This document shows positions 181 through 29,430 of a stretch of DNA of 32,626 bases, piece by piece. This DNA comes from a virus. The first letter of the stretch is position 1, and each line of letters begins with the position of its first letter. Both the position numbers and the translations under genes were made by a program. Below the pieces are notes generated by a model. That model saw nothing but the letters and a program-made list of their open reading frames with translations, did no database searches and was not told where the DNA came from. The stretch lies in IMG/VR virus record IMGVR_UViG_3300032220_000576, positions 1-32,626 of that record; one strand, 5' to 3'.

Positions 181-192
181 TAAACTATATGT

Positions 193-615: not shown

Positions 616-625
616 AATTTATTCA

Positions 626-3941: not shown

Positions 3942-3943
3942 TT

Positions 3944-9400: not shown

Positions 9401-12400
9401 GCATTATATTCTGAAGTTGGACTATTATAAGTTCCTGCTTTATGAGATGGTTTTGCAGTTCTGAAAGAAATAACCTTTTCGGAACCAATAAATCCATCAA
9501 CATCTTCTCCAATATTAAATGAACCAGAAACCATTGAGATTTCAAGTAACTTGGGTACAATATCAATTGAACTTATATCATCGACGAATGAATAATGTGT
9601 TGTTAATGGTCTCAGTCCAGCAGATCTAAACTCAACGTTTCTAGATCTCATAAATGGATCTGGCTCACTGCTCACCTGAACGCTTTCTACAAAGTCATAA
9701 CTATCTCCAGCATTTCCTATTGATCCATCAGATACTGTTCTTTTATTTTCAATGTAAATATTTCTTACCCAGTTATCTGAAGAAGGATTGAGAGTAATTC
9801 CGCCAGTATATTCTACAATATTAAACGGGTTTACATTTTCAACTTGAGTTGCAAATGGTTGCTCCAACCAACCAGTTTCTTCATAGTTTAGTGTAACTAG
9901 GTCTCCAGTTTTTCTTACATTATTATCAAGAAGATTGAGATTTGTAGAAAAGTCTGCGGTTGATGGATCAAGGTTTGTTGCTAAAGCTGGTTGTAATTTT
10001 AAAGACCAGAAATCTGTTGAAGGTATAAGTTTACCTTCAGTTGTGTTTACATCACATTTTACATCTGGATTTGTTTTATCAATTAAACTATTATTTTTAA
10101 AGTCATCGACAAAGAATCCTGTTTTAAATCTTGATAGACCATCAGTATCTTGAATTTGTAGAGTCTTAGTGTTAACCTCTAGAAGTGAAAGAGACGTTGT
10201 TATCTCAAGGTTTTCAATTCTATCTTCAAGAGAACCAATGTCTCTCATCGTATATCTTCTATTATCAACCAAGGTTATCTTGGCGTCTTGTGGATTGTAA
10301 AGATATGCTGGTAAGTAAATAGTAGCAATATCCATCGCTTCTTCAATGTTTAAAGAAGCTTTTGGTTCTAAAGCAGAAACTCCCTTAACAATAGAGAACT
10401 GTCCTAGTTTATCTAAAATTATTCTATCAACTCTTGGTAGATAGAATGAATATCCAAGTAAAGAACTTTCATTTGGAGTGATAGCAGAGTATGCTGTCGA
10501 AACTACAAAAGACCTAGTTCCATATGCAAATGGAGACTGTGATGTTGAAGTGAATTCAGATACTCTTGGTCTGAAATCTAGAACATCAGTCGCTCTTAGT
10601 CCATTCTGAAGTAGTGGAATATCATTTGTATATCTTTCAGCATCATATGAATTTACTGTAAAGATATCGCCTTGCTGATTGGTTGCTACATTATAATAAT
10701 TGAAAACAACTAAAAGTTGTCTTGATGGTGCTGGAGTATTTTGTACTCTTACAAGTCTTGAATAATCATAATATTGCTCTTTTTGACCTTTATCTAAAGT
10801 AAATCTGCTTGTTACATCAAGATAACTTCCAACTGTTATCGACTGAATTGATGAAGTAATATTTGACTCTTCAAAAGTAACTGCTTCTCCAGAATCAAAT
10901 TTTGATCCATTTAAGTAAACAAAGTCAACTTCATTACCAGAACTTGGTAAAGTTACGACTTGGGCAACTGCTCCACTGTTACTTCCAATAATTTTTTCAC
11001 CAATAAATGCATTTGAGTCTAAACCTAGACCTGATGGGAAAGTTAGTCGATCTAAAATAGGTGTTGAAGTGTTGAGAGATTCATATACACATACGATGTT
11101 AACAACATCAGGAACATTCAAAGATATCTCATTATCTTCAATTCTTGTACCATAAAATAGACTTGTCGTTAAACCACTTACAGATGCTGTAGATCCATTA
11201 TTAGTTTTTGTGATATTTAACGTTCTACTTCTAGCAAAAGTCTTGTTTTTGTTAGTTAGAACTTGCTTTCTTAAAGTTGTATTGACTGTTACGTTTGAAC
11301 TCTGACTTGCTCTAAGACCATTTATTGTTATTTGAGTTCCATCAACACTTAAAACAAACTGATCTGAAGATAAGTCTTCAATAGTTCCATCAGAATAGAA
11401 AACTGAATATCTTTCAGCGTCATATGCTTCAAAGAAAGCACTTGAAATTCCTGTATTGGAAACTGTTATAGTTGCTGTTCCAGTACTATTGGTTGAAACT
11501 TCCCTAACTTGAGATGTTACAATTAAATTAGAACTAGATAGATTTACTGATGATATATTGCTTTGATTTAATTTTGTATAAAGACCAGACTTTTCTGTAT
11601 TTTTAAAATCTGGAACTCCAAGACTGAAGGTAGTTGTTTCTGATGATGATGGTAGTGTACCATCACAAACGCCATTAACTGATGGAACAGCACTGACCGT
11701 CATTGTGTATCCATCAGCAGAGATAGAAACAACTTTATTAAATGTGCTTACATTAGTAGATACACCAGTCTTTTGATATCTAATAATTGAATCTGTTTTT
11801 ATTCCTAAGAAAGACTTACCTGGGCATGTAACTATGCCTGCTGAGTTTACAGTTATCTTATCTGTTGCATTGAACCCAAATGGAATTTTTCTAAACAGAG
11901 AAGAATCTGCAGAAAATGCGGTCTTCAGTGCTGGTGTTATACCTACAGCATTTTGATAAACTGATTTAATATCTTCGGTGGAGAATGCTCTAACTGAAAC
12001 AACAGAACGAGCATTGACTAGAGTATCGTTGATTGTAATTTGTTCGCCAACAATAAACGTTCCAGATGTTTGAGTTAAAGTTAAAGTTGTTCCAGAAGGC
12101 GCAGTTACAACATATCCAGAACCACCACTACTCAAACCCTTTACATAAGAACCTACAGGACAATCGCCAGAGTTTAGGGATTGGTTAATAATCAACTCAG
12201 TATAAGTTTGTACATCAAAGAGATAAAGATCCCATGAAGATGATGTATTCTGGTATGCAGAATCTGTTAGATTGAATGTATATACTCTTGCATCACCAAT
12301 TGCTGTAGTTCCAGATCCAGATACACCTTTTCTTTGATTGAAAAGTTTTACCGTATTTCCACCAGTGTGAATTCCTACGAATGGTGTACCAGATGTATTG

Positions 12401-13602: not shown

Positions 13603-15153
13603 TTAAAATTCCAGGATAATTTTAATATCTTCTTTTTGGCGTGTGTTTCTAGAAATCAGGGGTCTATTATCCAGGTAAATAATTTCCCCTGAGCCTTTAT
13701 TTATCTCTGGAGAAGCAAGACCGTTTGCAAAATTAACACCCAAGTTAATAACTTTAGTTCCTGTTGGATTAGTGCTAATACCGGTAAAGTTAGTGTCTAT
13801 AGAACCAGTAAAACCACTAGTTCCAGTTACTGCGTTTGCTGAAGATTGAAAACTTAAAACTTTACCACCGGTTGAAATACCAATGTAATCAGTTTGATCT
13901 AAAGTTGTTTGGTTGAAATATAAAGACCTGTCTTGAATATATTTCAGAACTTTCGTTTCACTATCATATGATGCTACATATCCAACAGATTTGCCGCCAG
14001 TCACATTTTGAGTTATCTTTTCTCCAATGGTTGGAGTTCCAGTAACAGAAGAAAACTTCAGCGAATATGTGGATGAAAACTGACTTTGAGTGAACGTTCC
14101 AGTTGATCCAATTGAAGTTGGATTTTTTAATATACCAACCTGTGCAAATTTCGTATCAATTGGAAAATCCTTTGTTGAGTCGTCAAATCTTGCATAAAGA
14201 ATAACTCTATCAGTTCCCAATTCTTTGTAAATATCATAACCATGTCCTCTGGATGGTGGAATGATGGGTATCAGTTTTGCAAAGGAACCAGTTGAGTTTC
14301 CATTGATGGATCCTAAATCAACTAAACCATAACTATATCCTTTTCCACCAGAGGAAACTGTTGTGTTTGTAATTTTTCCACCAACAACATCAACAATAAC
14401 TTTTGCTCCAGAACCATCACCTAAAATGTTTAGTTCTTGCCCTACACCATTTGAATAGTTTGCTCCAGGGTTATCAATATAAACTTTTTTAATTTGATTT
14501 GAGTTTACCGTAGAATCACCATTTTCTCTAACCGCTTGTATTTGAGAATCGGTTGATGTTGCCCAATCATTTGGAACAGTAATATATTCTGTAGAATCAA
14601 ACTTAATAATATCTCCAGGAGAAATACTGAATAAGTATTTCCAAACGTATCCATCACCACTAGAACCAGCAGCAGATGGTTCTAAGTCTGTAAAAGTTGG
14701 CTCATCTTGTGAAGCATTTCCTGTAGTGTTGATTCCAGAAGAACCATTATCTACGCAGATATAAACTCTGTAGTCAGAGTTGATTACATAGTAGTTTGAA
14801 TCATATAGTCTCGAAGACTGTGTAAATGGTGAAGGATTATTAGCACTGTAGTCATTACGATACATTTCATATCTTGTGCCTTTAGTCCAATCAATTCTCC
14901 TAATAACTCTCTTTACATTAGCAGTTGTTATTTTCTTACCAAACAACATCGTATCAGATGTATGTGCTTGATATGAAAAATTATCTGTAGGGTTAGGAAC
15001 GTTTGTGTTCCAGGTTGTTGACCTACCAAAACCAACTTGTGTAGGATTGGGTAGCCCTACAAAAATGTAATAGGAATTAGAATCATTTTCAACAGATTCA
15101 ATAAAGTTATCAGTATTTAAGATTCTAAACTGATCTGTTACAATTGCAGACAT
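13603..15153 (-). CDS. gp8: Baseplate wedge subunit gp8
   Basis: The 516-aa protein matches T4 gp8 (334 aa) at both ends. The N-terminal half has FGRSTTWNTNVPNPTDNFSY and then VIRRIDWTKGTRYEMYRND; T4 has FGRSEPWSS, then VIPRRDWGDTRYPD. Residues near 170-190 read DGYVWKYLFSISPGD and TEYITVPNDW, against T4 DGYVWEYLFEIPPD and NEYIVVPWP. The C-terminus GEIIYLDNRPLISR with KIILEF equals T4 GEMIYMENRPPI with NILFTF. The extra length comes from inserted GY repeats (about 221-275) and a GEKITQNVTGG region (about 374-395). In T4, gp8 dimers join gp6, gp7 and gp10 in each wedge. A TATAAATA late box lies 19 bases before the ATG and an AGGA ribosome site lies between them. Confidence 0.95.
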   Translation of the reverse strand: MSAIVTDQFRILNTDNFIESVENDSNSYYIFVGLPNPTQVGFGRSTTWNTNVPNPTDNFSYQAHTSDTMLFGKKITTANVKRVIRRIDWTKGTRYEMYRNDYSANNPSPFTQSSRLYDSNYYVINSDYRVYICVDNGSSGINTTGNASQDEPTFTDLEPSAAGSSGDGYVWKYLFSISPGDIIKFDSTEYITVPNDWATSTDSQIQAVRENGDSTVNSNQIKKVYIDNPGANYSNGVGQELNILGDGSGAKVIVDVVGGKITNTTVSSGGKGYSYGLVDLGSINGNSTGSFAKLIPIIPPSRGHGYDIYKELGTDRVILYARFDDSTKDFPIDTKFAQVGILKNPTSIGSTGTFTQSQFSSTYSLKFSSVTGTPTIGEKITQNVTGGKSVGYVASYDSETKVLKYIQDRSLYFNQTTLDQTDYIGISTGGKVLSFQSSANAVTGTSGFTGSIDTNFTGISTNPTGTKVINLGVNFANGLASPEINKGSGEIIYLDNRPLISRNTRQKEDIKIILEF

Positions 15154-15179: not shown

Positions 15180-18100
15180 CTATACATTTGATCTCTTTCT
15201 AAGAGCACCAGTATCTCTAAGTCCAAATCCTCTTCTTTGAATGGTTGGGAATGTTGATAAACCAACATCAACTGTTAAACCAGAAACTCCAATAGCAACT
15301 GGAGAAGTGCCTCTGTTTATTCCAGAAAGTTTACCCCATGAATATCTTCCAACTGGAGAGGAAGAAGATCCAAAAGTAGAAACTCCAGATATGTTAGAAT
15401 TTGATTTTACATTTACTATAATCTCAGCGTTTGTTGCTGCGGGTACAATGTTAGCAACAATATAAACATTATCAACATTTGTTGTTCCTATTCCAATAAC
15501 CGAACTATTAAGATTGTTTATTGAAGTTAAACCATTTCCAACTGTTGTATCTTTAATTAGAATTGGATGTCCAGTTGCAAGACCACTAAATCCACTTGGT
15601 CCTTGAACGAAGAGTTTTAGAGCAAGTGGATTACCTGAAGTTCCAGTTGTTGTGGTGATACCAGTTATAATTCCTGCAAATCCTTCAACTGTTGTAATAT
15701 TCGTAACTTTCTCTACCTGAATGTCGGGATATGATACAATAACTTGTGGAGGATTGGATGAAGTGTATCCAAAACCTGGGTTAGTAATAACTGGAGTTGT
15801 TATTGAACCTCCAACAATGGAAACTGTTGCGGTAGCAGTGCTTCCTACTCCAACTCCAATTGTTGACGGAGATGCAATTTTAATGGTTGCGGAACCAGAG
15901 TATCCAGTTCCAAAGTTAACTACGCTCAGCGAAGAGATAGTTCCAGCGGTAGAAACTACAGCAGTGATTGCAGCAGATACTGGATCTGTTCCCTGAACAA
16001 TCAGTCCTTCTACACTATCAATAGTGATAGAATAATTATTTTCTTCATAGTTGAAGAATGATGCATCATCTACAAATATTGAATTATCGGATGCTTGTAC
16101 ATCTTTAATGATTTTTGCAGTTGGATAAATTTGAGTTTCTAGTGAATCTCTTTCTTTGGAGACAATATCAAGGTTAATAACTTTGTCAACCTTTTGTTTA
16201 ATCCAGGTTAGTGGTTTATAATATGTTTCATCTATTCCTTGAGCAGTATAAATTTCAGTTTCAATTTTATCAGACCCTGGAATATTAGATATAACTCTTT
16301 GATTCTGACTTATTGTTTGATCAAAGTCATTATTTCTGAAAACTTGAACCGAATCTCCAATTTTAACAGTTTCAGCAACGTTCACGAATACTGTATCATC
16401 ACCTCTTGTCCCTCTGTAGAAGAAGATAGCAATATTATCTTCAACTCTTGGTGGATCGGTAAACACGAATGATGTTCCACCGTCGAACTGATAAGCAACA
16501 CCTGGTTGCTGAATAACTCCATTAATGAATATTAATAGAACTGCATTAAGATCAATATTAACAGAAGTTGTATTTGATGGATCTTTTTCAAAACTCAACA
16601 GTTGACCATTATAATAAAGTGGAAATCTCTTTCTTTGGTTGTTTTGTAGATTCTTGATGGAATCGATGTAATCAAGTTCACCAAACTGCCAGAATGAGAA
16701 TGAATCTGTGAATGTATCCAAGACAGTCAGTTTAAACTCTTGCAATGGGGCATTAAGTCCTCTAGCAGTAACTAAACCAACTGGTTTAAATACATCACCA
16801 ACTTTAAATCCATATCCTGGTCTTGAAATTTTGAACGAGGATACTTCAAATAGTGTTGATCCGATACCAGTTGTTGAAATTGCTCCAACGTCTAAAGTTA
16901 TTAGTAAGTTTGAACCAGTATCGGTAGTTGCTCCCACACCAGCTCTAGAAACGCCTATGACTGGTAAGTTTTCATAATTTGGTTCAGATACCAATATGCG
17001 TGGATTTGTGTATCCTGTGCCTCCAGAAACAACGTTAAACGTTAGAGTTCCACCAGCACCAACAGTTGCTGTGATATTAGCAGCGGTTCCTGCATGTCCA
17101 GTTTCAGTAACACCAATTGAAACTACACCACGATAACCAGAACCAACAATATCTGTCGTTCCAATACCAACTGAAGTGATAACTCCGCCAGAAACTACGG
17201 CAGTCACTGATGCTCCAACAAGAGGAGCAAAACCAGCACCAGAAGTAGAACCAAGAGAAACAATAATTCCTCCTCTTGGAAGTTGGTTTTGATTTACATC
17301 ACCAGGAGAAACAATAATTTGCCCGTTAGTAGATGTTATTCCTGTAAATCTAACACTGGAAATACCAGACTGTGTTGATACAACATAGTTATTACCTGCA
17401 TTATTTGATGTTGTTGGAGTTTGGAAAATATCATTTAAGAATAGAACTCCACTTCCAGTTTGAATTCCTGTAGTGTTTATACCTTGAACTGTTACTACGT
17501 AAGTTTGTCCAATACCAGTAAACTGATCAGATACATCATCATATATTACATTTGTAGTGTAATCATTTCTTAAATAAACTCTACCATTAAATGTTGTTTT
17601 TGGTACTGGTAAATTAGACTGATTTCTCCTTTGTCTTGGATTTCCTTTAGGCGCCTCAGTAAACCAAATTTTGTTATTTTCAATGTTATATGCACCTCTA
17701 TAAATTTGAGCTAAAGCACCATTACTATGTGATGTTGCAGCACTGCCAACGTATCCCCGAGTAACTTCAATTAATGGGAAAGTTCCAACTCCACTAATTG
17801 GTCCAGTTGTAGTTGTACCTATTCCAACGTCAGTTACACTCATATATTCTTCGTCAATCTTTATGATATCTTTTGGTTTGATGGAAGAAATACCAGAAAG
17901 TGAGAAGAATGTAGCGGCTAATCCTACTTGCCCGTAATTATTTGCTACAGTGTATGATATTGGTACAAAAGTAAGTGGTTTTTGAACTACACCATTAAGT
18001 GATATTATGGTTTTTTCAAGTTTTTTGGACATCTCAAGAGTATGTGCATTACCAGTTCCAGATGATGTAAATGTTACAAATATTCCTGCAAGTGCATATT

Positions 18101-21100
18101 CTCTCTTAGTTGATAACTTAAATTGAGAATCATTTACTTTGATTGCATAAACTTTTGGAGGTAGTATTGTAGTTACAACTCCAACATAGTTTGCGGTTGC
18201 ACCGATTCCAACTCCAGTAGCACCAACTCCAACAAACGAAGAACCTGGTTCATAATAGAGTTCTTCTCCAGTACTAAAGAAATGATTTGGAATTGTGAAG
18301 ATGCCTGTAACTGGATTTAAAACACTTGAGGTTGCTGGATTAAATGTCTTGACGTATATTTGAGTTCCATCATATCTGATATCAAAATCGAGTCTGTTTG
18401 CTCTATTTCCATTAATTGCATCATAAGCAGATAGTTGAACAAGACTTGTTGCTGTTCCGTAGTCTAAGTTTTGTGGAGCATTATCATAATCATTTTCAAA
18501 GTAAATAATTTCATTAAAACTCTGTACTTGAATATTTGAACTAATTAATGGATCAGGATAGAACTTAAGATAAGTAGAGGAACCATTTATCTCTCCACCG
18601 AATGTTCCAATTCCAGAAGTGCTGCCTATTGATAGGAATGGATACTGAACTGTGTATACGTTTGAAGAATCTTGAAGCATCAAGACTTGATGTACAGCAG
18701 ACGTATTTCCATATGAGACTCTTACAAGAGACTTGAGAGAAGATACATTACCAGTCGATACGCCAATAACACTTGTTGTTCCAGATGAAACAGTATATGA
18801 TGACTCATATCTAGCACTGCTCTCACTACCATCTGGTTGTCCAGAAGCTAAGAATCTATATGTTCCTATACCAGTAGAAGTAGAACCAAATCCAACGATA
18901 CTAGATCTTACAAGAACAACGTTACTTTCTGTATTGTAATAAGTTAAGGAAACAATTCCAGCAGAGATGGTGGAATCAAATGTTCCCATATAGTTTGAAG
19001 AATTTCCTTGAACACCACTACTATCAAAGTAAAAATCTGCCTGATATGTGTTTGTTCCGTCATGATCTAGTAGTAACTCAACATAGTTCATTTTTTCTGT
19101 AACAGTGTTTAGAATTTGAATGTTCGCATACAAACTCTGAACATTGTTTTTGTTGAAAGATAGTAGCGTTACAGTTGTTCCAATACCAACAGACTTATTA
19201 ACTCCCGTGAGGTTTACAAATCCAACAGACTGTGTACCTATTCCATTTACGGAGGAGTTGAATCTAGTCTTCACCATTTTGATATCATAATCAGTGTCGT
19301 AAAAATCTGTAGGGGTAAATCTAATTGATTGACCTTCACTATCACTCTTACCACTAATTTCGCCTAGAGATATATTAGTATTTGATAAAGAACCTTTTTC
19401 TAAGACATAAGAATTTCCAGTATCTTTTAATACTGTAAATTCGTATATTTGACGATCTAGATTATTTGGATTTATTACTTGAATTAAATATCTTGAATAA
19501 GTATCATCTAAGAAGTCAATATCTACAAAAGTATCTGAATTTGATTCTCTGTTGGAGAATCTAGACTCAATATCATCAATAAGTAGAACTCTATTCGTTA
19601 AACACTTGATATAATCAGTTAGTTTTTTATTCTTGAATTTTAAGAACTTAGACTTCGTTTGATTAGATGATGTATCAATATCTAGAGTTAAATCGAAGTT
19701 ATTGATAGCATCAACTCTCTTATTATCAATGATATCAAGGACAATCGTATCATTAGTTGTAGAAGCATAAGAAACTTTACTTCCAACTTTTGATTCTATT
19801 TGAGTATCTGAGAAATTCTTGAGACCAGAAGTATGAAGAAGACGATTTACTGGATCTATCATTTCATCATACTGAATTTTACTTCTTACTGAGTAAGATA
19901 GATTCTGATAATAATCGTTATCAGAGGTTACTTGATATGATTCATTTAATTTTCCAGTGTCACTTATCCAACCATAGTCTTGTCTTGTTGCATAATCAAC
20001 TTTAAATTGACCTTTGTTCTCAGTTATACTCTTAACTGTTACAATGACTCCAGAATTTTTACCCTTTACCTTTTCACCAACTGAAAGTGTATATGAACCA
20101 TTTACCTTAATATAGTTTCTTGTGCTTTCTGAAACGTATAGGTCTCTTTCGATATATCCACCCCCAGTGCTTGTTAAAAGTTTTTCACCACTGTTTAGAG
20201 TTGCAAAGGTTTGAGTAATATCAAAAACTGGATAGTTATTTCTAGAAACGATTGAAGCATATCCCTGGTTTGTTTTTGCAAAACCAGCATTTGTTGCAAT
20301 TCCTGAAAGACTAAACTCTACAACAGCTGGGTTCGTATTTGTGTAGGAACTTACTCTAAAGAATTGATATCCATAATCTGCCGAATTGAATCCATCACCA
20401 GCAGTACTATCTTTTTCAATTCCTTCAACAAAAATTTCTTCACCAATTGAGAAAATATTAGTTGTAAATCCTAAAATGGGAGTAGAAAGAACACATGTTA
20501 CAATTCCAGCAGGTGAAGATGTAATCGAACTAATTGAAACTCCATTACTGTTGTCTATCGCAATAATTCTTTGTTGAACAGAACTTAAACCATATGGGTT
20601 TGAAATAATTTTTACGGAGTTTACTGAACTTCCAGATATCGTGCAGGATAGTGAGGTACTATCTACAACTTCTCCCGTTTCTGGATCGACAATTATCAGA
20701 TTTGGTGCCGAAGAATAATTTTTACCACCGTCAGTGACCAGTACATTTGAAATAGTATTTGATTTTTCAGTAAAGATAATTGGTGATACGTAAGCTTCTG
20801 GTCTGATAGTCTTATCAGAAGAATATTCAAAACCAGCATTTAAGATTCTGGTTTTATTAATCTTACCAATTGTGGTTGAGTTTGCAATAATGTTTGCATT
20901 TTCTCCACTACTTGATGAGAACCCAACAAACTTAGGCACTTTCTTATAGTTGTAACCTGCAAATATAGTTTTTAATTTACCAATCCCTCCAGAAGTTGTT
21001 CTAGATGAAGTTGTGTACTTTAATACATCGTGTTGGGTTGGATATAACGTATTTCTTTCTGGTGCCTTGGATAGTGCAATATTAAACGTGGTTGTTCCTG

Positions 21101-24100
21101 TTCCGGTTACGGTGTAAGTGCCATTATAAGCACTATCAACAAATGAAATTTCAGAATGATTTCTAACTTCAGTATCTGAAGTGCTCAGATATCCAGACTT
21201 TTCTAGAGTATAATAAAGTTTGGAAGGAACTCCATCAGAATACTTCAGAGTAAACGTTGCACTGGTTGATATACCAATTGTTCCTACTCCAGAAATATTA
21301 AACGTTGAAGTGTTTCCAATAGATACAAATTCATCATCAAAATTCTGATCATAGAATATTTTTAACTTTCTATTTTGCAGTGAAGAATCTGAAACATTGA
21401 AAACTAAGTCCGAGTTTCTAACAATTGGAATTTGTGGATTAACCAGACTTATTTCATGTCTAGAACCTCCAGCACCAACTATTGAAATGGTATTTGGATA
21501 TTTTAAAGTTGTATCATAATAAGTATTGGATAATTTTATTGTACTATCATCAATTTTGTAAATAAAATATGTTCCAGTTTGAAGTCCAGAAGCAACTAAG
21601 TCAGTAGAATTATAGAATATTTTATCACCCGTCTTTAGATTAGATGCATCAATTGTTATCTGAGAAGCACTGGTATTAATTCCTGTTGAATTAAATCCGA
21701 TTGAGTTGACTAAAACTTTATCATATTCTTGGTTATACTTAATTCTTACTGAACTGGAGTTTCCTATTCCGGTTGTTACATTAGGATAAACATTAAGAGT
21801 TACAATATCTCCTATCTGCAAACCATGTGATGTTGAAACAGAAACTGTTGACTTAATTTTTTCAACTTTTCCAGTTACTTGAGTTAGATTGCTAGTAATA
21901 TAGTATTCATAACTATTAGAACCATTGGTTGTAAATGCTACACCTTCAGTGTTTGTAGTTAATCCAACAGCAGTTGTTATTCCAATAAAATCTTTTGATT
22001 TATTGATAACATAAACTGTTTGTGAAACTGAACTTGGTAGGTTGAATACTGTAACTCCACCATCAACAGAACATAAGAATGAAGAAGTTCCATCTTTTTT
22101 AGTGAGTGTAACTTGCTGTCCAGATTTAAATGGATGATTTGGTAAATAGATGCTTCTATTCAATATAGAAATATTTTTGGATGTTTCACCTACGGTGTTT
22201 ATAATTGTAGAAGAACCACCAATAGTTGTTCCAACACCTACACTTTGTTTTGGATTGAAGTAAACAATATCATTTACACTTGAGTCAAAATAATTTGCAT
22301 TAAGTGGTATTTCAATTTTGTTTGGTATTACGTTTACTTGACTCGATGCAGTGTGTGCTACACCAGTGTCTGATCTTCTTACTCTTAGAATAGATCCTTC
22401 ATTATAAACATTAAGTACTCTTAAAGTTTCAGATCCACCAATTCCAATTGTAATAGTGCTACCAACTGAAACAGTAGATGGGATGTTTGAGATAAAGATA
22501 TCTTCAATAGTTCCCGGTGCGACAACTGCACTAATATTTTTTACTAAGTTTACTCTAGCAGTCGTAACTCCTACCTTGTGAGTTCTATCTAATTTGTATA
22601 TTGATGTCGATAAACCTGAAATACTTACATACTCATTATCGCTTATAGTGTGGAATGGTGAAATAACTGCTTCTACAGTCTCCTTATCCTTCCAAACAAA
22701 GACTGAGTTGTTATAAGTTTCTACGGAAGTGGAAACATTAGTAATTACCTTTCCTTCAACTTCAGATATTTCAAGACTTAAACCATTTCCACTTGTGTTT
22801 GAATCATCAAAGATAGAAATTTCTCCAACACGATATCCATCACCAGGTTCATCAATTGATACGGAAGTAACTGAACCTTTGGTTACAGATTCGATTAAAG
22901 TTTGTTGTGTAATAATTTCATTTGATTCCACTAAGAAATCGTTATCAGCATATCTATCACCAACTTTATATGGGAACGTATTTCTTATCAGATCGGAGTT
23001 ATTAAAGTCAAAAGTTTGATTTAAAATAAAGTTATCAGTATTAACTACCGATCTATATGAATCACCAACAAAGTAAGGATATGCTGGTTTTAAAGTGTTT
23101 GTTGCAGTATCTGTTGCAATACCAACGAAGTAAGCATAAGTTCCATTAGGAAATTCTGATGTTTTGCAGAATCTTCCATTGTGAACATCTAAGTCGCCAG
23201 CATTAGTATAAACATAGTCTTCTACAAAGAAACCAGCATCAAAAGAACTTGGTCTATTTTCAACTCTAGACGAATCTAAAACATATCCACTTTTTAACAA
23301 TCTAATACTAGATGAAATGTTCTCGGGATCTGAAAAACCATATGGACCATAGATTGGATTTCCATCATATGCCCATCCAATTATTGGTGAATGGGATGAC
23401 CCAGTATCGCCAAAATCACTTGCAACAGTGTTTGTAGAATAACCGACAATAGAATATTGTAAGTTATTTTGAGTATCGATTAGAGTATCTTCCGAGTTTC
23501 TATACTGTTCATTTAAAGTTAGAGATCTAATAGAAGGATCAATTATTGCTCCAGAACCTGCCGCAACTACATTAATTTTGGTTGTTTCTTGATTATAGTT
23601 TGTTCCTGAGTTAATAACAATTACACTTACTAGTTTTTGGTTTGATATTACTGGTCTTAATACAGCGCCAAAACCATCGCCAATAATTTTTAAATTGGGA
23701 ACTGAATAATACTCAGAACCAGAAGACAGAACCTGAACTTGAATTATTTTTCCATTCTTAACAATTGGTTCTACTTCAGCATTTTTACCATTCTTAATTC
23801 TAATTTTTGGTTTTTTAACAAAGTTTAGAATGTTTGAACCATATCCTGTTCCTTTTTCATACAAATATGCATCAATAAGTTGTCCTCTAATAACTGGAGT
23901 TGCAGTAATAATACCAACAACCGTGCTACCGAACGAAACATTGACGTTTATTTCAATATTTGGATACTTAAAGATTTGATATCCAGTTCCAGTAGAAGAG
24001 AACTTAACGTAGTTCTTTCTTTCATAATTTGAAACGATTGATGCTCCAATTCCAGCATTTGCTACTCTGAAGGAGTCATTATCTATTTTTAAGATATAAT

Positions 24101-27098
24101 ATGAATTTTCTGTAGATAGACCAGAAATTACAGATGGTGAAGTTACACCATCGATTGATGAAATATTATATTCAATAATATCACCATCATTAAAGTTGTG
24201 ATTTTTAAATATTACACAGTCTCTTTCAGAAGATATACCTGTTGGTTTTACATATAAGTTTCTAGATTGATAACCACTACCAGGTTCTATAACTTTAATT
24301 TCTCTTAAAGTATTCTTCTCAAGAGTTCTAAATTTATGAATTCCTGTTGTATTTTCGGTAGTAAATCCAACAGTGTTTACTCCAACATAATAATCACTAA
24401 AAGTCTGATATAACTTTATGCTACTTGGGTTAACGATTTGGACATAATACTCAGAACCATTAACCAGAGTTTTATTTCCAATTCTGTTGAAAACATTATC
24501 AGGAGGTCCAAAGGTTCCTATTCCTAGACTTTGATTTCCATTATTACTATAAATGATTGACTGTCCGTTAACAAAATTATGATTTGTTGTAAATGTTATA
24601 GTTTCATCTGTGGCGTCTATTCCACCACCATAAATTGACTCTCTAGCATCAAATTCAATTTCTCTATATCTTTTTGAAATAACTGGTTGTAATGTAGCAC
24701 CACTACCATTACCACCTTTAATAGTTGCAGAAACAACGGTTGAAATGTCAAAATCTTGTGGATCAACTAAGACAGACTCTACAGATCCACTTACAACTGG
24801 TTTAACTAAAGATCTTGTTCCTGTTGTAGGAGAGTCAACTTCTATGTAAGGAGGGTTGAGAACATCATAACCAGATCCAAAGTTTACAACATTGATGCTC
24901 TCTAAAGGTCCATAATAAATTTTATCATTTGTTTTTGGACTTACAATTTCAACACCATTAATTAAAAGACCAACTCCACCAGGTACAGTTTTTTCTGACT
25001 TACCACGTGCAAAATTAATCTCTAAGGGAAACTTTCTGAGAAGTTTTTGCGGACTTATAATTAAGTCCTTATGTCTTGCTAGGATAAATTTGTGGAATCC
25101 TGATCCAGACGATAGATTTCCAAATTCTAAATATTCTACTGTTCCGATAAAGGAACGAGAAGTGTATAGTTTAATTTGATTTTTTAAAGTTTGTACTTCT
25201 ACAAAATAACTGTTTCCAGAGACCAAACCAGGCATTGGTTCTTTTTCTGGTCTGTAAATTATTTCATCACCAGTAATGAATGGAACGTTACTGGTAAATG
25301 AAATGATGGAGTAGTTTAAAGTTGTTGAATTAAAACCTTGCAGACGAGAACCACTTGCTTCACTTATAGTAGCATCTGAAATATTTTTCGTAATAGTATA
25401 AGATGGTAATGAGTTTGAAGCTACATAACCATACTTTTGATCACTATAAACATTTTGAATGTTTGCAATTAACTTATCATTACCATATTCTAAAGAAGAT
25501 CCAGTACTAGAAGATTTCTTTATCTTTCTTCTAATATCATAGTCTAAAGAAACTGATGGTGTAAAAGTTCCAAGTCCGTTCAGAATAATTTCTTTTGTTG
25601 TATTGTTAATAACAGAAACTGTTGCTCCAGAAACAACAACATTTTGAGTCCCTCTAACAAGAACTTCAATAGAATCACCAACTTTAAGACTTGACTTATC
25701 AATATCACTTAATAAGGTAAATGTGGATCCAGATATTGCTGATACTTGATATCTTGAACTTGTGTTATAAATCCAAGAATTTGCAAAAGTTTCTTTATAA
25801 GTTCTATTTTCTGATGGATTTTTGATTGATTCTCCAACGTTTCTAATACCAATATACTCACCTTCACTCGCTAAAGAGATATCTCCTACTGGAACAAACT
25901 CAGAAAGAACACCGGTGATTCTTATCTCAACCTTCTTAGTTTGATCCCCATCTTCATAACCAAAAACAACTTCATCTGAACGAATGGCAGATGTAGTATT
26001 AATTACGTTACTAACACCCGAGCATCCAAAAAACTGGTTTATACTCTTGTCTAAGTAAGAAATTTTATTAGAACCACTAATAAGAACTCCTGTTTGTCCA
26101 AAACCAATAGTTGAATCTACTGGAATAATGGATGAACCAACAGATACAGTTTCTAATACCTTTGTATTTCCAGGTATAGTAAATGTTCCTTCAGTTAAGT
26201 CATTATCATTATATCCAACAAATAAAGATATCTTGTAGTATGTTTTATTATTTCTTGTAATAATTTCAACTTCAGATACAGAACCTTGTGTTCTTTCATC
26301 GGTTGATTTTTTAATAGTTTGACCAACTAACTTGAGTGGATCTCCAGATATTCTCTCTGCAATTATATTTTCTCTTCTAGAAAACTTTGCACTCGATGGT
26401 TTTGTAAGTAATTGTTCTAGATCAATTACTTTTACATCTTCATTATATAAAACTCTAAAAAGAATTTTAAAAGACTCTTCAGTTCCTTTTGATTGATATA
26501 AACTCTTTGCTTCTTTAATAAAATTACTTACATCCAGGTTTGACGTTAATGAAGTATTCTCTAAACCTGGAACAAAAGTATATTTAATTTTATTATAAAA
26601 TTCTTGTAAAAATAGAGAACTTAAGTTATTTACCCCAACACCACTAGTATGAATACCAGCCGCGGAAGTTGAAAAAACAAGTTCTTCAGGATTATTTACT
26701 TGACGATATGAAGTAATACCACTAAAACCACGAATACATCCAGTAAAACTATTTGTTGTTATACCCGTATATGTAATAATTTCATCATCAATCTTAAGAA
26801 GACCATACTGATCTGGAAATCCTTTAGTAGAATCAACTACAATAGTTCCTGTTAATGAATCTAAAGTATTTTTTAAAGTTGTTGTTCCACTGATAACCTC
26901 TGGAGTTAAGTTATCAACTTTTAAATATTGATCTAAGTTCTCAGCAATATCAATTGGACCACCTTGATATTCCTGTGAGATATAATATTGCTTTAAAAAA
27001 TCTGCAGCCTTTGGAGATTCTGATAGTAAAAATTCAGGTATTTGATTTTGAACAATTTGCTGAATCTTAACTCTTACGTCAAAACCAGTTGCGATCAT
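15180..27098 (-). CDS. gp7: Giant gp7-like baseplate wedge protein with YHYH domain
   Basis: This is a single open frame of 3972 aa, nearly four times T4 gp7 (1032 aa). Near the N-terminus, SLYQSKGTEESFKILFRVLY (199-218) followed by NEDVKVIDL, and then KLVGQTI (256-262), match the C-terminal part of T4 gp7 (YSTKGIEASYKFLFKVLYNE, then DLVGQTI). Residues about 1235-1330 carry a YHYH-type domain: GWAYDGNPIYGPYGF with W1242, then LDVHNGRFCKTSEFPNGTYA with H1306. About 2338-2440 holds GEKVKGKNSG followed by DYGWISDTGKLNES and DNDYYQNLSYSVRS. A segment ending near 3540 has VLLIFINGVIQQPGVAY and RVEDNIAIFFYRGTRG, common in phage fibres. Most of the rest is repeated beta-rich modules. The slot between gp6 and gp8 is that of gene 7. 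The start has AGGAAAT upstream, inside the end of gp6. Confidence 0.88.
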   Translation of the reverse strand: MIATGFDVRVKIQQIVQNQIPEFLLSESPKAADFLKQYYISQEYQGGPIDIAENLDQYLKVDNLTPEVISGTTTLKNTLDSLTGTIVVDSTKGFPDQYGLLKIDDEIITYTGITTNSFTGCIRGFSGITSYRQVNNPEELVFSTSAAGIHTSGVGVNNLSSLFLQEFYNKIKYTFVPGLENTSLTSNLDVSNFIKEAKSLYQSKGTEESFKILFRVLYNEDVKVIDLEQLLTKPSSAKFSRRENIIAERISGDPLKLVGQTIKKSTDERTQGSVSEVEIITRNNKTYYKISLFVGYNDNDLTEGTFTIPGNTKVLETVSVGSSIIPVDSTIGFGQTGVLISGSNKISYLDKSINQFFGCSGVSNVINTTSAIRSDEVVFGYEDGDQTKKVEIRITGVLSEFVPVGDISLASEGEYIGIRNVGESIKNPSENRTYKETFANSWIYNTSSRYQVSAISGSTFTLLSDIDKSSLKVGDSIEVLVRGTQNVVVSGATVSVINNTTKEIILNGLGTFTPSVSLDYDIRRKIKKSSSTGSSLEYGNDKLIANIQNVYSDQKYGYVASNSLPSYTITKNISDATISEASGSRLQGFNSTTLNYSIISFTSNVPFITGDEIIYRPEKEPMPGLVSGNSYFVEVQTLKNQIKLYTSRSFIGTVEYLEFGNLSSGSGFHKFILARHKDLIISPQKLLRKFPLEINFARGKSEKTVPGGVGLLINGVEIVSPKTNDKIYYGPLESINVVNFGSGYDVLNPPYIEVDSPTTGTRSLVKPVVSGSVESVLVDPQDFDISTVVSATIKGGNGSGATLQPVISKRYREIEFDARESIYGGGIDATDETITFTTNHNFVNGQSIIYSNNGNQSLGIGTFGPPDNVFNRIGNKTLVNGSEYYVQIVNPSSIKLYQTFSDYYVGVNTVGFTTENTTGIHKFRTLEKNTLREIKVIEPGSGYQSRNLYVKPTGISSERDCVIFKNHNFNDGDIIEYNISSIDGVTSPSVISGLSTENSYYILKIDNDSFRVANAGIGASIVSNYERKNYVKFSSTGTGYQIFKYPNIEINVNVSFGSTVVGIITATPVIRGQLIDAYLYEKGTGYGSNILNFVKKPKIRIKNGKNAEVEPIVKNGKIIQVQVLSSGSEYYSVPNLKIIGDGFGAVLRPVISNQKLVSVIVINSGTNYNQETTKINVVAAGSGAIIDPSIRSLTLNEQYRNSEDTLIDTQNNLQYSIVGYSTNTVASDFGDTGSSHSPIIGWAYDGNPIYGPYGFSDPENISSSIRLLKSGYVLDSSRVENRPSSFDAGFFVEDYVYTNAGDLDVHNGRFCKTSEFPNGTYAYFVGIATDTATNTLKPAYPYFVGDSYRSVVNTDNFILNQTFDFNNSDLIRNTFPYKVGDRYADNDFLVESNEIITQQTLIESVTKGSVTSVSIDEPGDGYRVGEISIFDDSNTSGNGLSLEISEVEGKVITNVSTSVETYNNSVFVWKDKETVEAVISPFHTISDNEYVSISGLSTSIYKLDRTHKVGVTTARVNLVKNISAVVAPGTIEDIFISNIPSTVSVGSTITIGIGGSETLRVLNVYNEGSILRVRRSDTGVAHTASSQVNVIPNKIEIPLNANYFDSSVNDIVYFNPKQSVGVGTTIGGSSTIINTVGETSKNISILNRSIYLPNHPFKSGQQVTLTKKDGTSSFLCSVDGGVTVFNLPSSVSQTVYVINKSKDFIGITTAVGLTTNTEGVAFTTNGSNSYEYYITSNLTQVTGKVEKIKSTVSVSTSHGLQIGDIVTLNVYPNVTTGIGNSSSVRIKYNQEYDKVLVNSIGFNSTGINTSASQITIDASNLKTGDKIFYNSTDLVASGLQTGTYFIYKIDDSTIKLSNTYYDTTLKYPNTISIVGAGGSRHEISLVNPQIPIVRNSDLVFNVSDSSLQNRKLKIFYDQNFDDEFVSIGNTSTFNISGVGTIGISTSATFTLKYSDGVPSKLYYTLEKSGYLSTSDTEVRNHSEISFVDSAYNGTYTVTGTGTTTFNIALSKAPERNTLYPTQHDVLKYTTSSRTTSGGIGKLKTIFAGYNYKKVPKFVGFSSSSGENANIIANSTTIGKINKTRILNAGFEYSSDKTIRPEAYVSPIIFTEKSNTISNVLVTDGGKNYSSAPNLIIVDPETGEVVDSTSLSCTISGSSVNSVKIISNPYGLSSVQQRIIAIDNSNGVSISSITSSPAGIVTCVLSTPILGFTTNIFSIGEEIFVEGIEKDSTAGDGFNSADYGYQFFRVSSYTNTNPAVVEFSLSGIATNAGFAKTNQGYASIVSRNNYPVFDITQTFATLNSGEKLLTSTGGGYIERDLYVSESTRNYIKVNGSYTLSVGEKVKGKNSGVIVTVKSITENKGQFKVDYATRQDYGWISDTGKLNESYQVTSDNDYYQNLSYSVRSKIQYDEMIDPVNRLLHTSGLKNFSDTQIESKVGSKVSYASTTNDTIVLDIIDNKRVDAINNFDLTLDIDTSSNQTKSKFLKFKNKKLTDYIKCLTNRVLLIDDIESRFSNRESNSDTFVDIDFLDDTYSRYLIQVINPNNLDRQIYEFTVLKDTGNSYVLEKGSLSNTNISLGEISGKSDSEGQSIRFTPTDFYDTDYDIKMVKTRFNSSVNGIGTQSVGFVNLTGVNKSVGIGTTVTLLSFNKNNVQSLYANIQILNTVTEKMNYVELLLDHDGTNTYQADFYFDSSGVQGNSSNYMGTFDSTISAGIVSLTYYNTESNVVLVRSSIVGFGSTSTGIGTYRFLASGQPDGSESSARYESSYTVSSGTTSVIGVSTGNVSSLKSLVRVSYGNTSAVHQVLMLQDSSNVYTVQYPFLSIGSTSGIGTFGGEINGSSTYLKFYPDPLISSNIQVQSFNEIIYFENDYDNAPQNLDYGTATSLVQLSAYDAINGNRANRLDFDIRYDGTQIYVKTFNPATSSVLNPVTGIFTIPNHFFSTGEELYYEPGSSFVGVGATGVGIGATANYVGVVTTILPPKVYAIKVNDSQFKLSTKREYALAGIFVTFTSSGTGNAHTLEMSKKLEKTIISLNGVVQKPLTFVPISYTVANNYGQVGLAATFFSLSGISSIKPKDIIKIDEEYMSVTDVGIGTTTTGPISGVGTFPLIEVTRGYVGSAATSHSNGALAQIYRGAYNIENNKIWFTEAPKGNPRQRRNQSNLPVPKTTFNGRVYLRNDYTTNVIYDDVSDQFTGIGQTYVVTVQGINTTGIQTGSGVLFLNDIFQTPTTSNNAGNNYVVSTQSGISSVRFTGITSTNGQIIVSPGDVNQNQLPRGGIIVSLGSTSGAGFAPLVGASVTAVVSGGVITSVGIGTTDIVGSGYRGVVSIGVTETGHAGTAANITATVGAGGTLTFNVVSGGTGYTNPRILVSEPNYENLPVIGVSRAGVGATTDTGSNLLITLDVGAISTTGIGSTLFEVSSFKISRPGYGFKVGDVFKPVGLVTARGLNAPLQEFKLTVLDTFTDSFSFWQFGELDYIDSIKNLQNNQRKRFPLYYNGQLLSFEKDPSNTTSVNIDLNAVLLIFINGVIQQPGVAYQFDGGTSFVFTDPPRVEDNIAIFFYRGTRGDDTVFVNVAETVKIGDSVQVFRNNDFDQTISQNQRVISNIPGSDKIETEIYTAQGIDETYYKPLTWIKQKVDKVINLDIVSKERDSLETQIYPTAKIIKDVQASDNSIFVDDASFFNYEENNYSITIDSVEGLIVQGTDPVSAAITAVVSTAGTISSLSVVNFGTGYSGSATIKIASPSTIGVGVGSTATATVSIVGGSITTPVITNPGFGYTSSNPPQVIVSYPDIQVEKVTNITTVEGFAGIITGITTTTGTSGNPLALKLFVQGPSGFSGLATGHPILIKDTTVGNGLTSINNLNSSVIGIGTTNVDNVYIVANIVPAATNAEIIVNVKSNSNISGVSTFGSSSSPVGRYSWGKLSGINRGTSPVAIGVSGLTVDVGLSTFPTIQRRGFGLRDTGALRKRSNV

Positions 27099-27101
27099 AT
27101 T

Positions 27102-29027
27102 TTATTTCCTCTCCAGTTCTCCGTTAGAGTAGCTTGATGTATAGTAATCTCTTGTAAAAGTGACTCCAGAGATATCTTCTCCGGAAGAAATAACATCCTT
27201 AACCATATTTATGGTGCTATCTGAAATACTAAAACTTAGATACAAATCACTCAGACCAACAACATCATTTGACTCAGGATATGCTTGTACTTCAATAATA
27301 TTATTTTCCTTTTCAGTTGAGGTGATGTTTATTGTGTTAATGATGATCTCACCATTTGCATAGTCAATCGTTCCTGCAGAAGCAATAATAACTCTATACT
27401 CACCATCATTCATGCGTTTTACAACAGATAAAACACCTCTTCCGCTACCATCAAGAGTACCGGTTGAAGTCTTATTTGGAACATCAGTGAAGTAAACTAG
27501 ATCAGTGTTTCCACTAATATAGAATCCTGTACTCTTGATGTTATATCCTTGAGAATTAATGTGGAACTTATTTCCATAGCACAGTTCATATTGTGCAAAC
27601 TGGTTGACGAGTGCCTTTAAGTTTCTACGTATTCTGACTTTTGTAATGTTGGAAGTAATCGAACGGTCAGCATTATCAATAATCTGTAGAATTTTACTGT
27701 ACTTAAATCTTCCACCAAACTTGTTCAGGTCAACAGAAGATGCATAGGTGTTTAATGCATCAACAGCAGTTGCTTTGAGACCACTGACGTTTGAAACTTG
27801 AGGTGAGTTGTAGTAGATTGAAGAATCAATTTCAACATAAAGAATCTTAAGATCGATAATTTCTTGGTTGATTCCTGTAAGTGAATATTGCTTTAGTTTT
27901 GAAAGAATAGTTTCTTTATCAAAGTCTGAGATAAAATCACCATTCTTTGGTTTGATACTAATTAAAACTTTTCCAAACTGTGGTGGACTCAGTTCTTCAC
28001 CACCAACTACAGAAACAGACTCTGTGTTTGGATATATTTGTTGGATAATCGCTTCATAGTCTCTTGAGGTCACTGCTCTGTACTGAGCAGAATAAAGACG
28101 AGGGGCAAAATATTTAATGGATGATACTGGTTCAATTTCACCACCATTCATTGCACCTTGAACAGTAGTTAATGTTACTGAACCAGCTGGAATTACAGGG
28201 TTGCTACTTGAATCTCTGAACGTTCCAGAGAAACTAAACTCCGATGGACCATTTCCATCTTTACCATCAGTAATAATGTATGTGACTGTAATGACTGAAC
28301 TATTCTCTAACTTCTTACCAAAAATACCATCACCAAATAACAGTTCATACTTCTCATCCTGAACTTCTTGAAGTAGATAGATTTCAGATGTTCTCTCAAT
28401 ACGAATAATATTATCTACCTTTTGATATTCTCTACCAAGACCACTATCTGATGGTCCCTTTACATAGACAACAATGGATGAAGTATCAATGAAAGAGTTA
28501 TCGAGAATAAATCTCTGATCCAGTGAACCATCAACAACAAACTGTTTTGTTAAAAATGTTCCCTGATAGATTTCAATAGGACTTGCGGTGGTTCCAAAGG
28601 TCGCAACACCACCATTGATGGTAGTAGAGACGTTTTCTGGAATAGAGAAGGTATATGTGCTCTCATTCGCTGTACCAACGCACACTAGACCCGCCTGTAG
28701 CGTGAGTGTAGGACTTGTAGCACTAGTTGGTACACTAATCGTTACATGTGCCCTTGCTGCCGTTCTAGAGCGTGGTGTGTAACCGATATTTCTTGCAAGT
28801 GAAACGACATTTTCTCTTAAAGTTGCTGAGTCTAGAAAAGACTCATTCACAACCATATTTGAGTTAAATGCTGTGATATATGTATTATACGCTAGAGTAT
28901 CGATTAAAACAGAAAAGTTAGAACCTTCGAAGTCAAAGTCAGTAAAGTCTGAATTTGCACGAAGATAATCTTTTATCGATGTTTTAATCTGATCAAAGTC
29001 TAGATTTGTAAATTTAGTGAAAGGCAT
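27102..29027 (-). CDS. gp6: Baseplate wedge subunit gp6
   Basis: The 641-aa protein is close to T4 gp6 in length (660 aa). It begins MPFTKFTNLDFDQIKTSIKD, then LRANSDFTDFDFEGSNFSVL and IDTLAYNT, the N-terminal pattern of the family. Around 314-350 it has YRAVTSRDYEAIIQQIYPNT, SVSVVGGEELSPPQFGKVLI and SIKP, which aligns with the T4 core (YRAVTASDYKALV ... GGEKNDPPQYGKVFVSLKP). The family forms the heterotrimeric (gp6)2-gp7 core of each wedge and links wedges in a ring around the hub. It follows gp25 with one base between stop and start, and precedes the gp7-like gene by three bases. No insertion of the kind seen in gp14 or gp8 is evident. Confidence 0.95.
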   Translation of the reverse strand: MPFTKFTNLDFDQIKTSIKDYLRANSDFTDFDFEGSNFSVLIDTLAYNTYITAFNSNMVVNESFLDSATLRENVVSLARNIGYTPRSRTAARAHVTISVPTSATSPTLTLQAGLVCVGTANESTYTFSIPENVSTTINGGVATFGTTASPIEIYQGTFLTKQFVVDGSLDQRFILDNSFIDTSSIVVYVKGPSDSGLGREYQKVDNIIRIERTSEIYLLQEVQDEKYELLFGDGIFGKKLENSSVITVTYIITDGKDGNGPSEFSFSGTFRDSSSNPVIPAGSVTLTTVQGAMNGGEIEPVSSIKYFAPRLYSAQYRAVTSRDYEAIIQQIYPNTESVSVVGGEELSPPQFGKVLISIKPKNGDFISDFDKETILSKLKQYSLTGINQEIIDLKILYVEIDSSIYYNSPQVSNVSGLKATAVDALNTYASSVDLNKFGGRFKYSKILQIIDNADRSITSNITKVRIRRNLKALVNQFAQYELCYGNKFHINSQGYNIKSTGFYISGNTDLVYFTDVPNKTSTGTLDGSGRGVLSVVKRMNDGEYRVIIASAGTIDYANGEIIINTINITSTEKENNIIEVQAYPESNDVVGLSDLYLSFSISDSTINMVKDVISSGEDISGVTFTRDYYTSSYSNGELERK

Positions 29028-29028
29028 T

Positions 29029-29430
29029 TTATCTGGTTGCCTCTAATATAAACGTAAACGCTTGTGTCGGAACATCTTGTCCAATAATATCAAAGACAAC
29101 AGTCACATTAAAAGTATTTTCATCAGGTTGAGGATCGACCTCTACCTTAACGTTTGTGACTCTTGGTTCAAAATTACGAACTGTCGTCAGAATTTGGTCT
29201 TCAATGATGGATGCAGTACCATAATCAACGAATTCAAAGAGACTTGAACGTACTTCAGAACCCAACAAAGAGTTAAAAAACCGCTCTGTTGGGATAGTCT
29301 CAACTAAATTTCTGACTGAACGACGAATTGCGTTCTCATTTTTCAAAATAGGCAGGTCTTTTGTCACAGGATGAGGCTCAAAAGACAAACTAATGTCCTT
29401 AAATGCCCTTGATACTCTGGTGACTGCCAT
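29029..29430 (-). CDS. gp25: Baseplate wedge subunit gp25
   Basis: The 133-aa protein is almost the exact length of T4 gp25 (132 aa) and has the family's lysozyme-like fold pattern: early DISLSFEPHPVTKDLPIL, then NAIRRSVRNLVETIPTERFF (33-52) and the hallmark NFEPR (86-90). The EPR motif is conserved in contractile systems, including TssE of type VI secretion. The protein ties gp6 dimers to the sheath and nucleates sheath assembly. It has no catalytic lysozyme residues that I can identify, as expected. A perfect late promoter box precedes it, with GGGAG between the box and the ATG, making it the first gene of the baseplate operon. Confidence 0.95.
   Translation of the reverse strand: MAVTRVSRAFKDISLSFEPHPVTKDLPILKNENAIRRSVRNLVETIPTERFFNSLLGSEVRSSLFEFVDYGTASIIEDQILTTVRNFEPRVTNVKVEVDPQPDENTFNVTVVFDIIGQDVPTQAFTFILEATR

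Follow-up and report, generated by a model that had tools for sequence, protein, structure and literature searches.

The giant protein between gp6 and gp8 of a putative cyanophage record is an orthologue of the baseplate wedge protein gp7

What kind of protein is encoded by a frame of nearly 12 kb set among the baseplate genes of a virus, and what would such a chain do in the virion? The question arises in IMG/VR virus record IMGVR_UViG_3300032220_000576, the whole of which, 32,626 bases long, is called the window here and is probably a fragment of a larger phage genome. The minus strand carries, at positions 15180-27098, a single uninterrupted frame of 3972 codons for a protein of about 429 kDa; the plus strand has many stops over the same interval. 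An initial annotation, made from the letters alone, described an uninterrupted 11.9-kb frame between gp6 and gp8 and called its product a gp7-like wedge protein. The frame is as described, and searches of Pfam and PHROGs give the gene order gp25-gp6-giant gp7-gp8. The protein is a gp7 orthologue, and an ordinary member of a known, poorly understood family of giant gp7 proteins. The favoured reading, with a probability of about 0.72, is that it is the wedge initiator, that its residues 1-400 are the anchor, and that the extension beyond them forms the outer baseplate together with a VrlC-type protein.

The identification as gp7 is carried first by sequence comparison. The two motifs on which the initial annotation relied lie exactly at residues 199-218 and 256-262 (KLVGQTI), and the profile search that it proposed as a check was passed: a profile built from 25 sequences over the first ~340 residues, run against the PDB, lists T4-type gp7 chains alone up to E 1 (two chains, E 3.2e-4 and 4.5e-4). 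A phmmer search of the PDB with residues 1-450 likewise finds nothing up to E 1 but two chains of T4-type gp7 (E 0.0032 and 0.034). With the whole chain as query the signal is diluted, and the only match, to a LacI-type regulator (E 0.43), is regarded as fortuitous. The score against T4 gp7 is 21.7 bits. Of the controls, the best of 200 shuffles gives 7.5 bits and the reversed chain -1.8, and 12 other T4 proteins all stay below 1.2 bits. Reciprocally, residues 730-758 of T4 gp7 align to positions 196-224 of phrog_2885, the family of the giant, at E 1.3e-4. The giant has no match to the T4 gp7 family, phrog_964, at E 0.001. A bridge is provided by two families of small gp7 proteins, phrog_26741 and phrog_17744, which match T4 gp7 and, strongly, the gp7 of Ochrobactrum phage OC; the window giant matches phrog_26741 at E 3e-11. 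The signature in its strict form (YxS/TKGT) is found in 38 of 63 relatives with long N-termini, and Y201, K204 and G205 do not vary across an alignment of 79 sequences.

Structural comparison agrees with this placement. In an AlphaFold2 model of residues 1-1200, with a mean predicted local distance difference test (pLDDT) of 75.8, the top Foldseek chain among 350,542 is T4 gp7, at an E-value (0.021) that is non-significant alone. Alignment with VIA places model residues 240-400 on T4 gp7 765-843 (5hx2_A; Z 7.7, root-mean-square deviation (rmsd) 2.5, 79 aligned, 22% identity) and residues 226-401 on 761-846 of a related gp7 (9f4a_A0; Z 8.4, rmsd 3.0, 85 aligned, 21% identity). A longer alignment, of 197-400 on 731-844, joins 114 residues at 29% identity (Z 8.6, rmsd 11.0). 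The order of the structural match agrees with that of the sequence match, and the beta domain follows the helical core at positions colinear with T4 765-846, although the Z values are modest and the fold alone would be indecisive. VIA rows for F1-ATPase and Uba1 were rejected as relatives and read as common small barrels.

The core of the giant consists of two helical halves separated by an inserted barrel. In a profile search of 12 target sequences, in which four of the six giants had contributed to the profile, residues 5-59 align with residues 5-59 of OC gp7 (631 aa; independent E-value (i-E) 1e-7), and the second half of the OC core is found at 78-141 (i-E 4e-12). Residues ~190-400 of the giant correspond to T4 gp7 ~726-846 by direct comparison, and residues 5-59 are linked to T4 gp7 by way of OC gp7. 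The halves are thus less than 20 residues apart in OC gp7 (59 to 78) and about 100 apart in the window. The intervening barrel of the window, residues 66-158, aligns with the JBD30 baseplate domain (8rk3_b 478-559; Z 10.2, rmsd 2.0, 76 aligned) and with 9in6_M (Z 10.9, rmsd 2.5, 77 aligned). A similar barrel interrupts the beta domain, where the Mystique tail tube protein 9n71_A aligns by its residues 105-177 with 310-375 of the model (Z 8.9, rmsd 1.8, 66 aligned). The two are alike in sequence, with a phmmer E of 0.0046 between 66-155 and 308-376 against 0.19 for the best decoy. A third copy, far out in the extension, matches both 8rk3_b (Z 8.9, rmsd 2.3, 78 aligned) and 9n71_A (Z 8.2, rmsd 1.9, 69 aligned); the JBD30 likeness is therefore common to the first and third barrels and the Mystique likeness to the second and third.

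The position of this core bears on the direction of evolution. T4 gp7 (1032 aa) shares with the window protein the core signature, the beta domain that follows, the partner gp6 and the neighbour gp8. It differs in that ~640 residues precede the core and ~186 follow it, whereas in the window protein almost none precede it and ~3570 follow; the T4-type N-terminal part of ~640 residues is absent from the window, where the core starts at residue ~5. The initial annotation placed the signature near the end of T4 gp7, which is only roughly right (~726-846, or 70-82% along the chain), and near the start of the giant, which is correct. Its further proposal that a C-terminal domain of an ancestral gp7 became an N-terminal anchor is not supported, as the core is N-terminal elsewhere and T4 is exceptional. 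The core is N-terminal in all seven cyanophage giants examined (four of them in the profile) and in OC gp7. Published descriptions, as far as the text available goes, place core-bundle helices at residues 1-48 of gp17 of XM1, a gp7 orthologue (PMC10457771), and a helical bundle at 1-107 of A-1(L) gp32 (PMC10966104). The gp7 proteins of the Ackermannviridae VP-1 and Ag3 have an N-terminal core by weak matches (E 0.0012 and 0.0007), and the proteins at the gp7 position of Campylobacter CP30A and Maribacter Molly_3 have no core match (E 0.23 and 1). The placement at the N-terminus can be called firm in OC and the cyanophages and, from published work, in XM1 and A-1(L), but in no others. Because the core is N-terminal in all of these, T4, alone among the proteins compared in having ~640 residues before it, is not taken as ancestral. 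Read most simply, the ancestor would have had an N-terminal core, in front of which the T4 line added a new part, while the cyanophages extended the chain at its C-terminus. OC gp7 looks like an intermediate form: it has the N-terminal core and one module of the extension (200-326 on window ~2356-2486, E 3.2e-11), but a short extension and no room for a barrel between the helical halves. XM1 gp17 and A-1(L) gp32, which belong to contractile tails of a simpler kind and are compared by the available published descriptions, likewise have an N-terminal helical part in the wedge, but XM1 gp17 is tiny (242 aa) and binds separate spike proteins.

From T4, XM1 and A-1(L), a role for the giant in the baseplate can be proposed. 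Residues 5-59 and 159-218 would pair with two gp6 chains in a (gp6)2-gp7 core bundle, with one chain per wedge and six per virion, each seeding its wedge. In XM1 gp17, an inserted core loop (80-106) and the C-terminus (201-242) hold the tail spikes, according to the accessible text (PMC10457771). The cyanophage chain has its additions in similar positions, one between the helical halves and the other C-terminal. Residues 401-3972, a string of small, covalently joined beta modules, would leave the core where the XM1 orthologue binds its spikes. This string and the 2374-aa VrlC-type protein would make up an outer baseplate in place of the separate gp9, gp10, gp11 and gp12 trimers of T4, and these outer chains may hold the fibres and pass the contraction signal inwards. 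The N-terminal domain of gp9/10 (PF07880) and gp11 (PF08677) are found in T4, and neither has a match in the complete relatives P-SSM2 and S-SRM01 or in a 236-kb IMG/VR record.

Several points weigh against this assignment. The direct sequence match to T4 gp7 spans only about 35 residues, and the predicted core helices have low pLDDT, about 41-61 (41-58 for residues 5-59). At E 0.001 Foldseek gives no match for either the N-terminal model or that of the C-terminal part (2920-3972), which is almost entirely beta but of low quality (mean pLDDT 59). The T4-type gp7 chains rank 7, 12 and 23 in VIA (Z 7.7-8.6), below several rows for small barrels, and the higher rows, on other parts of the model, include the unrelated UBA6 (Z 8.8). 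The searches of PDB sequences and with Foldseek turned up no solved giant gp7, so that placement and copy number are argued by analogy. The Pfam comparison covers two of the gp9-gp12 families, and sequence profiles may fail to detect copies that have diverged; in P-SSM4 the annotation gp9 is given to the gene that follows gp7, and S-SZBM1_203 is annotated as a 'tail fiber connector'. Fibre stand-ins could also lie elsewhere in the genome, and the window is a fragment.

The extension could instead be a long side-fibre or adhesin, six chains of which would project from the baseplate and touch the cell with receptor-binding ends. The XM1 spikes do attach via the corresponding parts of its gp7, and it is plausible that the extension reaches the cell surface, as was suggested initially. 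Receptor-binding tips, however, are usually the most variable parts of such proteins, and the extension is conserved throughout: identity to the window is spread over the entire chain at 0.31-0.73 per 50-residue block, and the highest blocks are the first ~400 residues and 3251-3500, near the C-terminus. Scans of PHROG, Pfam and NCBIfam give no fibre or adhesin family for the giant except YHYH, and S-SCSM1 has separate tail-fibre genes. A fibre is thus unlikely, though it is the best of the alternatives.

It is more doubtful still that the chain is a polyprotein-like precursor, cut in assembly to leave the gp7 core in the wedge and free the other pieces. Its extreme length might suggest so, as might partial peptide coverage of a relative. 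S-SZBM1_208, named 'baseplate wedge initiator', stands in a virion table, as far as the accessible text shows, with the figures 724.20, 6619, 71 and 13.5% (PMC9146016), which are read as kDa, residues, peptides and coverage, and of which 6619 agrees with the sequence record. A coverage of 13.5% lies within the 2.6-43.7% of the other rows in that table as available, although below many of them. The same figures count towards the favoured reading, as one of the reports of virion presence for relatives of the giant. ORF122 of S-CREM2, which is flanked by one inner and one further intermediate wedge protein and is linked to the window by description rather than by sequence, was reported with 91 unique peptides and 27.2% coverage (PMC10665884, in part). 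S-SCSM1_15, a wedge protein of 4120 aa that aligns to the family profile over nearly its whole length, bears the record note 'virion protein'. Mass spectrometry gave 45 virion proteins for S-SCSM1, with S-SCSM1_15 unnamed in the text examined (PMC9602691).

Giant gp7 proteins are already known and not new. According to a proteome survey, no bacterial virus was found to have a larger protein than the wedge initiator of P-SSM4 (7312 aa, 800 kDa; PMC8553790). A comparison from 2010, in the portion at hand, counts gp7 among the large structural proteins of the non-cyanophage core, as divergent proteins in up to nine clusters (PMC3037559). According to a paper from 2020, cyano- and pelagimyophages have no counterpart of T4 gp7, for which VrlC appears to stand in (PMC7029224). 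In sequence the giant resembles T4 gp7 directly over only about 35 residues, a likeness that would be easily missed, but it is very improbable that cyanophages are without gp7 and have VrlC in its stead. In the window a gp7 orthologue, between gp6 and gp8, occurs together with a separate VrlC-type protein, after gp8, which contradicts the published absence for the lineage of the window. In S-SRM01, S-PM2 and S-SCSM1, too, gp6 is followed by a giant, then by gp8 and then by a VrlC/VriC protein labelled 'virulence associated', with one or two further genes within this order in the latter two. Neither DUF4815 (E up to 0.1) nor phrog_358 (E up to 0.001), both of which match the 2374-aa neighbour, matches the giant. 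A literature search covering few subscription papers recognised no solved baseplate of a T4-like marine cyanophage.

The remaining alternative, an assembly fusion or a chance frame, has next to no probability, its only support being two relatives with broken frames, set against near-identical contigs in other records (L004 at 100% over residues 1-400; L193 and L194 at 99% over the C-terminal 470) and a single frame in 17 of 18 IMG/VR relatives. Chance coding is excluded because the relatives keep one long frame with identity along the whole chain. These numbers come from at least 80 related IMG/VR loci, of which 20, mostly long records, were queried for gp8 and 18 had their gp7 region fetched. 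Seventeen of the fetched regions have one uninterrupted frame, of 3655-4723 aa, and one (L091) is interrupted. The median length is 3972.5 aa over 20 complete proteins, namely these 17 with P-SSM2, S-SRM01 and the window. gp8 lies downstream of gp7 in 17 of the 20 records queried, and in one is in two pieces. gp7 is split into several frames in S-SKS1 (L003), where the first part has no annotation, and in L091 (the contig behind L047), in which gp8 is also in two pieces; both broken gp7 frames are likely sequencing errors. S-SKS1 was dropped from the conservation count for its broken frame, and L091 was aligned as one piece and left uncounted.

Within phrog_2885 ('baseplate wedge subunit'), the best stretch of the window giant covers positions 3-3336 of a profile with 4179. 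Among 50,697 phage records, 466 have a match to residues 1-300, and their names point almost throughout to cyanophages (Synechococcus 372, 'Cyanophage' 61, Prochlorococcus 24, Marine 5, Methylophilales 4). The last 440 aa match 96 of the 50,697, including S-SRM01, S-SCSM1 and P-SSM2. Among the matches listed for residues 1-300, the close ones are labelled mostly baseplate wedge initiator or subunit and the distant ones mostly 'structural protein'; the best is S-SRM01 (65% identity), and P-SSM2 has 60%. Judging by these relatives, the source virus probably infects cyanobacteria. Annotated giants follow gp6 in S-SRM01 (3895 aa), S-SCSM1 (4120), P-SSM2 (5195), S-SZBM1 (6619) and P-SSM4 (7312). 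The first three, all Kyanoviridae, share with the window the locus gp25-gp6-gp7 followed by gp8, the N-terminal core and a C-terminus common to all, but are divergent in sequence and of other lengths, and S-SCSM1 has two genes between gp7 and gp8. The giants of P-SSM7, P-SSM4, S-SZBM1 and S-PM2 also follow gp6 and have the core, and range in size from 3048 aa (S-PM2, for which the best family is phrog_4406) to the 7312 aa of P-SSM4. In P-SSM7, P-SSM4 and S-SZBM1, unlike the window, ~500 further residues interrupt the inserted barrel of the core.

The extension is predicted to be mostly beta in its modelled parts (401-1200 and 2920-3972), and VIA finds for the C-terminal model only matches to small domains, with a best Z of 8.9. 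Besides the main run in the table, GxGY-type repeats occur at ~740, 1030-1190, 1410, 2085-2130, 3280-3430 and 3725-3780, with looser ones elsewhere, by a loose regular expression used without a control. A tandem repeat of the DNA (unit 26 bases, 2.1 copies) lies within the gene at 16515-16566. The YHYH domain is also present in both of the full-length relatives scanned, in S-SCSM1 at a matching place. The tetrad that gave the domain its name is replaced by YAYF in 19 of 21 aligned sequences, among them the window, and by YAYY or YAYH in the others; no sequence keeps YHYH, in spite of the high family score.

Most of the larger window modules (6-115, 117-569, 683-808, 1066-1356, 1407-1458 and 1873-2517, of which S-SZBM1 has the last split in two) are found in the same order in P-SSM7 and S-SZBM1, with extra material between them; in S-PM2 the order is kept only to ~1458. 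Modules of the repeat type (window ~1105-1175, ~3706-3795 and others) break this order in P-SSM7 and S-SZBM1, where they recur in copies additional to those of the window. The E-values of this comparison refer to 12 target sequences, two of the six giants were in the profile, and P-SSM7 gp7 was compared over its first 4982 residues, where the sequence used ends. Since modules share their order, with inserts, and repeats recur out of order, the giants may have grown by insertion and copying of beta-rich modules, after residue ~400 and within the core.

Such modules are also found in other proteins of the window. Residues 201-372 of gp14 (1672-3099) form a C-terminal tail of GxGY repeats common to gp7, with phmmer E of 7e-5 and 5e-4 against best decoys of 0.48 and 0.12, and gp14 matches phrog_2885 at E 3.2e-7. 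The tail of gp15 (626-1672), at ~210-305, matches the giant-type family phrog_4406 at E 1.4e-5. For the pairs gp14-gp8, gp14-VrlC and gp15-gp7, phmmer scores do not beat the decoys, or barely do so, and the links rest on PHROG profiles; BLASTP among the window proteins at E 1e-3 printed no cross-match, and NCBIfam gave no family for gp7 or VrlC. In the record behind L077 (G012), residues 216-281 of gp8 match at 33% inside the giant gp7 frame (23050-23241), a further sign of module sharing between gp8 and gp7. Neck, wedge and VrlC proteins thus seem to draw on one module pool.

The features of the locus are collected in the table. The VrlC name of the 2374-aa protein rests on position, the gene after gp8 being named VriC/VrlC in S-SRM01 and S-SCSM1. 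Three open reading frames (ORFs) upstream of gp25 encode, in order, an S-adenosylmethionine decarboxylase (29774-30115, E 4.1e-30), a phrog_3704 protein labelled 'ferredoxin' (30136-30792) and a phrog_1574 protein with weak glycosyltransferase similarity (31113-31868); the decarboxylase likewise stands two genes before gp25 in S-SRM01. At the end of the record, ~32001-32626 has a G+C of 0.536, against 0.29-0.41 elsewhere, and is possibly foreign or chimeric; the ORF there (32307-32609) has no Pfam or PHROG match.

Table. Coordinates of the giant gp7 gene, its parts and its neighbours in the window
Feature	Residues	Positions	Strand	Basis
Giant gp7 (baseplate wedge initiator)	3-3319 (family match)	15180..27098	-	phrog_2885, E=0
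Predicted helices H5-19, H22-27, H31-44, H51-59, presumed core-bundle helices	5-59	26922..27086	-	AlphaFold2 model
Small beta-barrel between two helical halves	66-158	26625..26903	-	Model and VIA
Second helical half, with T4 gp7 signature 199-218 (26445-26504)	159-218	26445..26624	-	
Beta domain (with KLVGQTI 256-262) matching T4 gp7 765-846	240-400	25899..26381	-	VIA
Second inserted small beta-barrel, inside beta domain	~308-376	25971..26177	-	phmmer, VIA
C-terminal extension without T4 gp7 counterpart	401-3972	15183..25898	-	Models, alignment
GxGY-type repeat run	1066-1190	23529..23903	-	Loose regular expression without control, PHROG cross-matches
YHYH domain	1231-1333	23100..23408	-	PF14240, E 2.4e-25, 90.1 bits, cut-off 25
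Third small beta-barrel copy	~3045-3135	17694..17966	-	VIA; pLDDT about 45-69
Best conserved part of extension	3251-3500	16599..17348	-	0.64-0.73 identity per 50-residue block
gp6, expected wedge partner		27102..29027	-	Gp6-like_1st, E 2.1e-18; phrog_219
gp25, sheath initiator		29029..29430	-	GPW_gp25, E 1.6e-12
gp8, baseplate wedge		13603..15153	-	Phage-Gp8, E 1.4e-15; phrog_438
VrlC-type structural protein, 2374 aa, distinct from gp7		6475..13599	-	DUF4815, phrog_358

A more speculative proposal, held only tentatively, is that two giant covalent chains, gp7 and VrlC, replaced the many outer trimers of T4, and that these chains grow from a shared pool of beta modules. T4 gp9, gp10, gp11 and gp12 are trimers. 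Counting three copies each of gp9 (288), gp10 (602), gp11 (219) and gp12 (527), plus 640 residues of gp7, a T4 wedge has about 5500 residues, and the gp7 extension (3572) and VrlC (2374, with its copy number taken as one) together have about 5900, a rough agreement. If the proposal holds, shared beta modules would also decorate gp8, gp14 and gp15, and the baseplate, the end of the sheath and the neck would carry related surfaces.

With the giant firmly placed as gp7, its residues 1-400 can serve as the anchor point when these baseplates are modelled. Across the family, a conserved wedge protein grows from ~630 residues in OC, or perhaps 270 in the Ackermannviridae, to 7300, and keeps its place in the gene order.

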